Source: Mycobacterium sp. 3519A (GTDB taxonomy: Bacteria > Actinomycetota > Actinomycetes > Mycobacteriales > Mycobacteriaceae). Taken from it: a DNA stretch of 64,000 bases. This document shows, in pieces, positions 43,354-62,672 of this stretch. The notes under the pieces are model-generated. The model was not told the origin of the DNA. It did no database searches and worked only from the letters and a program-made list of their open reading frames with translations. The stretch is from positions 430,923 to 494,922 of the forward strand of contig NZ_OESG01000014.1 of NCBI RefSeq assembly GCF_900240945.1, read 5' to 3'. Position 1 is the stretch's first letter; each line of letters starts with the position of its first letter. The position numbers and the translations under genes are program-made.

Positions 43354-43998
43354 TCACAGTCCGGCCACGCCCGCCACCAGGGCCACACCGCCAACCACTG
43401 CCAGCAGTACCGCCACCTCGACCCGGCGCCGCGCCCGGATCCAGGTGTTGAACGCATCCACCCGCCTGACGGTGGCCTCCGGCGCCAGCAGATAGGCCAG
43501 CAGGGGAATCTCGATGAACGCGAAGGCAACGACGTTGAACATCAACAGCACCGCGACTTGCGTCATGGCCGCCGCACCCGAAGCCAGAATGACCGCCAGC
43601 GCGGCGAGATAGTCGATGGACGGCAACGCGATTCCCAGACCGGCGACGCCCGCCACCGCGAGCGATGGTCCGCTCAGCAGTTGTCTGGCCGGCCTCGCCA
43701 GCCTCGTCGGCCGCAAGTTCCACAGCCTGGGCACCGCGACGAACACCGCAGCCAGCAGCGCCACCACCCCGATCAGGATCTGAACGTTCGGCAGGGTGAA
43801 GTGGCGGGTGCCCAGCAATACCGGCCGGAACAGGAACAGGATCACCAGGCCGACCGTCAACCCCATCGCGAAACCGCCGCACAGGAATGCGAGCAGTTGC
43901 AGGGCCGGTCTCGGCCGGTTCAGCATCAGCACGGTCATCCCGATCCGGAATGGTTCGACGCTGACGGCAAGGGCCATCACCAGGACAGTCACCAACAT
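43354..43998 (-). CDS. GAP/Sap-family membrane protein (glycolipid-addressing)
   Basis: 214 residues from ATG 43998 (CAGGAG upstream). Six membrane helices, e.g. [23 protein letters not shown] and [22 protein letters not shown]. It belongs to the family of Sap (sulfolipid-1 addressing) and Gap (glycopeptidolipid addressing) proteins that assist surface delivery of lipids. As last gene of the FadD/PE/MmpL/PapA set it probably aids export of trehalose polyphleates. Confidence 0.85.

Positions 43999-62672: not shown

Follow-up and report, generated by a model that had tools for sequence, protein, structure and literature searches.

We found that positions 43354 to 62672 of the window (i.e., the whole 64,000-nucleotide stretch of DNA analyzed here) very probably hold an intact locus for the biosynthesis and export of trehalose polyphleates (TPPs). 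The locus encodes Sap, a FadD23-like FAAL, the acyltransferase PE, MmpL10, PapA3, and a bimodular PKS, and all of the frames are open. Clusters of this type are known and common surface-glycolipid clusters; the part that goes further is our reading of the PKS, in which one dehydratase domain (DH) would be shared by both modules. The gene set, open frames, domain order, malonyl-type AT motifs, catalytic residues, synteny, and family were established here, and the product of the locus and its fluxes are predicted from the sequence.

Gene content of the locus

The six-gene cluster of the original prediction was recovered in full, each gene as an open frame (Pfam, NCBIfam, and PDB matches). On the minus strand, the genes run outward from papA3 in the order papA3 (50037 to 51458; TTG start), mmpL10 (47006 to 50074), pE (45822 to 47006), fadD23 (44030 to 45778), and sap (43354 to 43998), and pks (51708 to 62672) lies on the opposite (plus) strand. 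The co-location of pks, papA3, mmpL10, fadD23, and pE is as expected of a TPP locus. The flanking genes are an sdhA-sdhB pair and one for a DapB-like protein (Pfam and NCBIfam), and a search for repeats across the locus returned nothing notable. The host genome is that of a 7.3-Mb Mycobacterium whose closest named relative is Mycobacterium sp. ACS1612 (PapA3, 98% identity).

PapA3 contains a Pfam condensation domain (PF00668) and the motif HVHGD (residues 171 to 175), and its top PDB match was PapA2 (6aef). MmpL10, an RND-type exporter (PF03176), scored 943 bits against TIGR00833 (cutoff, 875); its true start is perhaps at 50002, inside the listed frame. The PE-PPE-domain protein PE (PF08237) scored 675 bits against the NCBIfam model "acyltransferase PE" (NF041570; cutoff, 580) and likely starts at about 47006. 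The FAAL scored 981 bits against NF004509 (cutoff, 775) and had FadD23 (8hd4) as its best PDB match; against the FadD21 model NF038337, it scored 956 bits, i.e., under the cutoff of 1100. Sap, a membrane protein of the sulfolipid-1-addressing protein family, matched PF11139 with 186 bits. The listed sap frame reaches 44151 and the match begins at residue 56 of this long frame; on the basis of a start-codon listing, the ATG at 43998 is the probable true start.

The divergent intergenic region between papA3 and pks (51459 to 51707) contains blocks conserved across 76 aligned loci, including TATGTT (about 51515 to 51520, minus strand, before papA3), which resembles a promoter -10 element as judged by letter conservation alone. 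An intact yet silent set of genes is quite improbable, as is one that yields the diacyltrehalose precursor only; in either case, predictions for the surface and for phages would fail. Expression is not readable from sequence, and TPP loci look broken in other genomes (L149, L159, and L161; see below). However, the six frames here are open, the catalytic residues are kept, and the intergenic blocks are conserved.

The PKS (3,654 aa) has the domain order KS-AT-KR-ACP/KS-AT-DH-ER-KR-ACP, as determined from Pfam, NCBIfam, and motifs, giving two KS, two AT, two KR, two ACP, one DH, and one ER domain. GHSVG and HAFH, the typical malonyl signature of AT domains, occur in both ATs; malonyl-specific ATs are expected for the unbranched chains of TPPs. 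The two HAFH motifs were present in all 72 PKSs of an alignment composed of the window and 71 further loci (frames >2,900 aa; 9 of 80 were dropped as shorter). Among the 80 named relatives, 74 had two GHSVG and two HAFH motifs, and the other six, with short or cut PKS frames, had fewer. The window PKS is a single bimodular protein of TPP-type size, compared with 3,697 aa for the M. abscessus Pks (PMC10465359).

Comparison with DAT/PAT loci

According to the original prediction, a closer match with the PAT system of Pks3/4, PapA3, and MmpL10 would speak against a TPP locus. We checked this, and the comparison favored TPP. The M. tuberculosis DAT/PAT parts are given as Pks3/4, PapA3, MmpL10, Chp2, and FadD21 (PMC4183827), and a locus of this kind, giving methyl-branched mycolipenoyl trehaloses, is what PMC10216323 assumes for M. 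abscessus. Every protein of the window locus is homologous to that system, PapA3 relatives carry the jgi name "mycolipenoyltransferase," and the FadD21 model reaches the 956 bits noted above, but the DAT/PAT assignment is nevertheless highly improbable, and we rejected it: the PKS has two modules rather than one, both ATs have the malonyl-type HAFH, pks is divergent, PE scores above the NF041570 cutoff, and the FAAL scores below that of FadD21.

As a contrast set, we used five PAT-like loci (L154 to L158), in which PapA3 was only 52 to 58% and PE only 41 to 48% identical to those of the window. In all five, the PKS had a single KS and GHSLGE but lacked HAFH; pks, papA3, and mmpL10 were codirectional, and the PE, Sap, and FadD genes were on the opposite strand. 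We take this gene order to be that of the M. tuberculosis DAT/PAT locus. The window does not show the DAT/PAT pattern of a one-module PKS without a malonyl-type AT and codirectional with papA3. Because it has two modules, malonyl-type ATs, and a divergent pks, unlike the five PAT-like loci, we regard it as TPP-type, a reading that is also supported by the "acyltransferase PE" equivalog and by PapA3 similarity. The M. tuberculosis system shares homologous parts and the sequence of cytosolic diacyltrehalose formation, MmpL10 export, and transacylation outside; it differs in its one-module PKS and methyl-branched products.

The sequence references were the named loci of Mycobacteroides franklinii (L029) and M. 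chelonae (L066), with 83 to 84% identity in PapA3 and 82% in the PKS, and the M. abscessus and M. smegmatis loci were likened by published description. As far as those descriptions go, the M. abscessus (MAB_0937c, mmpL10; MAB_0939, pks) and M. smegmatis (MSMEG_0408-0412) TPP loci have the same five biosynthesis genes and Sap; that of M. abscessus also has a bimodular PKS of ~3,700 aa, with pks opposite mmpL10 according to the c suffix of the tags. The window differs in the order mmpL10-PE-fadD23-sap, with sap co-oriented, whereas the M. smegmatis tags run mmpL10-fadD23-pE. Six loci of a distant subtype (PapA3, 66 to 72% identity) likewise had a TPP-type PKS, divergent in 6 of 6; four of these (L148 and L151 to L153) were examined fully, and each had two HAFH motifs and one strong DH. 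A bimodular PKS, HAFH in each AT, and the divergence of pks may serve as sequence markers that distinguish TPP from PAT loci. In PMC10216323, the M. abscessus pks is treated as orthologous to Pks3/4 and as making mycolipenic acids, a label against which the AT motifs and module count argue.

Telling the two types of loci apart is useful, given that TPPs affect the clumping and fitness of M. abscessus and how some therapeutic phages adsorb to it. The original prediction had the product affect cording and serve as a phage receptor in other mycobacteria. Cording in relation to TPP is treated in PMC5524727, and fitness is treated in PMC11633156. The receptor claim stands insofar as loss of TPP blocks phages BPs and Muddy (PMC10465359), but the wording "probable co-receptor" fits better: in Wetzel et al. 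2023 (PMC10465359), TPPs are described as more likely co-receptors for these two phages, and most of a broader phage panel is TPP independent.

Double-bond formation by the bimodular PKS

On the basis of homology, FadD23 would convert a fatty acid, probably C16, into its acyl-AMP and load it onto the PKS, which would iterate with malonyl-CoA to give unbranched polyunsaturated phleic acids. PapA3 would esterify trehalose with one plain fatty acid and one phleate, MmpL10 would carry this diacyltrehalose precursor across the membrane, and PE would swap phleates among molecules, the final transacylation yielding TPP. Sap would be an accessory membrane protein.

The double bonds of phleic acids lie at carbons 4, 8, 12, 16, and 20, and a C16 starter with five passes of the PKS accounts for all of them, each pass adding a predicted four carbons. 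With bonds at these positions, the alkene has to arise in the module-1 cycle. The phleates of M. smegmatis, C36:5 and C40:6, in which each further C4 brings one more C=C (PMC5902629), fit one alkene per bimodule pass.

Module 1 has no detectable DH. The stretch between AT1 and KR1 (54291 to 55241) comprises a linker and a structural psi-KR, and a psi-KR profile matched this module-1 stretch in 72 of 72 PKSs. Pfam detected no DH in module 1 of the window or in any of the 43 module-1 stretches tested (of 72), and a profile of the module-2 DH found none in 72 of 72 (best E value, 1.8). We therefore rejected a hidden module-1 dehydratase, which neither Pfam nor the module-2 DH profile detects. The module-2 DH (59076 to 59912; residues 2457 to 2735; PF21089 and PF14765) has its catalytic His and Asp (H2479 and D2646 in the window) kept in 72 of 72 PKSs. 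The Cys-His-His triads of KS1 and KS2 were likewise kept in 72 of 72; one KS2 reads KTHIGH, with the His retained.

The two KRs differ in their signatures. KR1 (55242 to 55778; residues 1179 to 1357) has the A-type W1319 in 72 of 72 PKSs, LDD at the motif position in 0 of 72, and neither the B-type Pro nor the B-type Asn; an exact LDD lies about eight residues beyond the motif position in the window, and similar triplets occur in relatives. In the window, KR2 (61575 to 62081; residues 3290 to 3458) has the B-type LDD, Pro, and Asn, and the same holds for 24 of 24 further PKSs. Thus, KR1 looks A-type and KR2 B-type, with the qualification that the Caffrey motifs, like the KS motifs (position 1 to 4), are correlations. 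We took the meanings of the KR markers from PMC5331325, which also reports that altering these sites gave inconsistent results and that some DHs do not accept A-type alcohols. The gate loop of KS2 reads V[AG][AV]N (VAAN, VGAN, or VAVN) in 72 of 72 PKSs and is not the enoyl-selecting VMYH. A gate-loop methionine of a KS has been shown to select enoyl intermediates (PMC11321453), and because KS2 is without it, the evidence leans towards KS2 taking a hydroxylated chain.

We propose the following cycle. In module 1, condensation would be followed by reduction by the A-type KR to an L-type beta-hydroxyl, with no dehydration at this stage; in module 2, a second condensation would be followed by reduction by the B-type KR. 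The single DH would then take off both hydroxyls, either through a 2,4-dienoyl intermediate or with one dehydration just before transfer. The ER would act on the alpha,beta bond only, leaving one alkene per four carbons. The module-2 DH probably works twice per pass, because module 1 is without a DH and yet one C=C is formed per C4, because the KRs appear to be A-type and B-type, and because both KSs are intact.

We consider the shared DH the best reading; its main rival is a DH acting in trans. In that case, a separate enzyme, such as a Had enzyme of FAS-II, would remove the module-1 hydroxyl, leaving the module-2 DH to act only once per pass. Such an arrangement would suit a module 1 without a DH, and other PKSs use trans-acting domains (PMC8456789). 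However, Pfam and NCBIfam revealed no dehydratase gene among the six genes or their immediate neighbors, and M. smegmatis lacking hadD can still make TPP, although other Had enzymes remain (PMC5902629), and we regard this rival as unlikely.

The shared-DH reading has a parallel in the type B dehydrating bimodules of trans-AT PKSs. As described in PMC8456789, these combine a KR-only module with an elongating KS and a DH that acts twice to give a 2E,4Z-diene, and their KRs are usually A-type; with an ER added, a 4Z-alkene would remain. The window PKS resembles them in having a KR-only module followed by an elongating KS and a DH module that would serve both hydroxyls, an A-type KR first (here by signature), and two elongating KSs. 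It differs in that type B bimodules are trans-AT and usually split between proteins, whereas it has two integral ATs and both modules in one polypeptide, would be iterative, and has an ER that would remove the alpha,beta alkene. The same layout is found in epothilone modules 4 and 5, along with a cis alkene.

More tentatively, the TPP PKS family may represent an iterative cis-AT "dehydrating bimodule," in which a single DH acts on two oppositely configured hydroxyls and an alpha,beta-only ER leaves isolated alkenes at 4, 8, 12... spacing, cis (Z) via KR1. If so, the bimodule program would set the spacing of phleic acids, and the A-type KR1 would predict cis (Z) bonds; the literature searched yielded no statement on the geometry of these bonds in phleic acids.

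Distribution, history, and related loci

TPP loci are common, given that a TPP-type PapA3 was present in 276 of 396 genus genomes (261 of 361 among good-quality genomes). The threshold (E ≤ 1e-205) was placed in the gap between a group with at least 66% identity and the remainder, and the count misses split genes (e.g., that of G087). The divergent pks pointed out in the original prediction is real in the window; it is not special here, since all 80 named loci analyzed, i.e., those with the best PapA3 matches among 189, have pks opposite papA3. In the 73 untruncated loci of these 80, the order was mmpL10-PE-fadD23 in 52 and mmpL10-fadD23-PE in 21.

Three TPP loci (L149, L159, and L161, in G009, G087, and G246, respectively) look broken, through natural loss or assembly error. 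In L149, the PKS is split over several frames; in L159 and L161, PapA3 is in two pieces, and the PKS frame of L161 also stops early. An in-frame TGA suspected in PapA3 of several distant relatives proved to be the normal gene end, as translation of L119 and L121 runs on to a stop at the very last residues.

To examine the history of the locus, we built quick trees, in which supports are SH-aLRT only and the tested groups were defined after the trees were seen. The window grouped with ACS1612 and OAS707 in the SdhB (support, 99) and MmpL10 (97) trees and with ACS1612, OAS707, L044, L006, and L007 in the PE tree (96). In the FadD23 tree, the window fell into a 21-row set (97) with ACS1612 and 19 rows bearing mostly slow-grower names, which we take to be slow growers, and the OAS707 FadD23 lay elsewhere. 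The window Sap fell into a 17-row clade of all co-oriented Saps (100). Forcing the window FadD23 together with those of OAS707, L006, and L044 was only marginally rejected (p-AU, 0.048), and forcing its Sap together with that of OAS707 was strongly rejected (p-AU, 2e-58). OAS707 is 98% identical in SdhA, yet has the order mmpL10-fadD23-PE, compared with mmpL10-PE-fadD23 in the window. The window's own genome held no second FAAL closer than 56% to the OAS707 FadD23.

We claim that Sap and FadD23 probably differ in history from MmpL10, PE, and SdhB. On the basis of the trees and gene order, an exchange of fadD23 and sap appears to have taken place in this lineage, perhaps as a single event; for fadD23, the evidence is moderate. 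Acquisition of Sap from slow growers as such was rejected, as the 17-row clade comprises all co-oriented Saps; L037, L057, and L063 are within this clade, but their FadD23 does not group with the slow growers.

The five PAT-like loci (L154 to L158) come from genomes of 3.1 to 4.4 Mb, i.e., small-genome mycobacteria that retain such a locus; DAT and PAT are called unique to the M. tuberculosis complex in PMC4183827. The window's own genome contains a second acyltrehalose-type locus (L084-L085; C14:2270000-2305000) with a one-module PKS (2,088 aa, no HAFH), PapA, MmpL, two GT28-like glycosyltransferases, a pyruvyltransferase, a PE-PPE protein, an acyltransferase-SGNH protein, and a FAAL. It shares PKS, PapA, MmpL, FAAL, PE-PPE, and Sap-like proteins with the TPP locus and differs in its one-module PKS, glycosyltransferases, and pyruvyltransferase, and in a PapA of 48 to 49% identity; we presume that it is a lipooligosaccharide (LOS) cluster. 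In a further stretch of that genome (L086; C13:1400000-1419999), where no PKS was seen, the genes for a third PapA (40%) and an MmpL (50%) are divergent, and two alpha/beta hydrolases are encoded close by. Elsewhere in the window, positions 15684 to 19946 (minus strand) encode a hybrid protein of 1,420 aa that combines GAF, histidine kinase, receiver, PAS, and SpoIIE phosphatase domains with a second ATPase domain.
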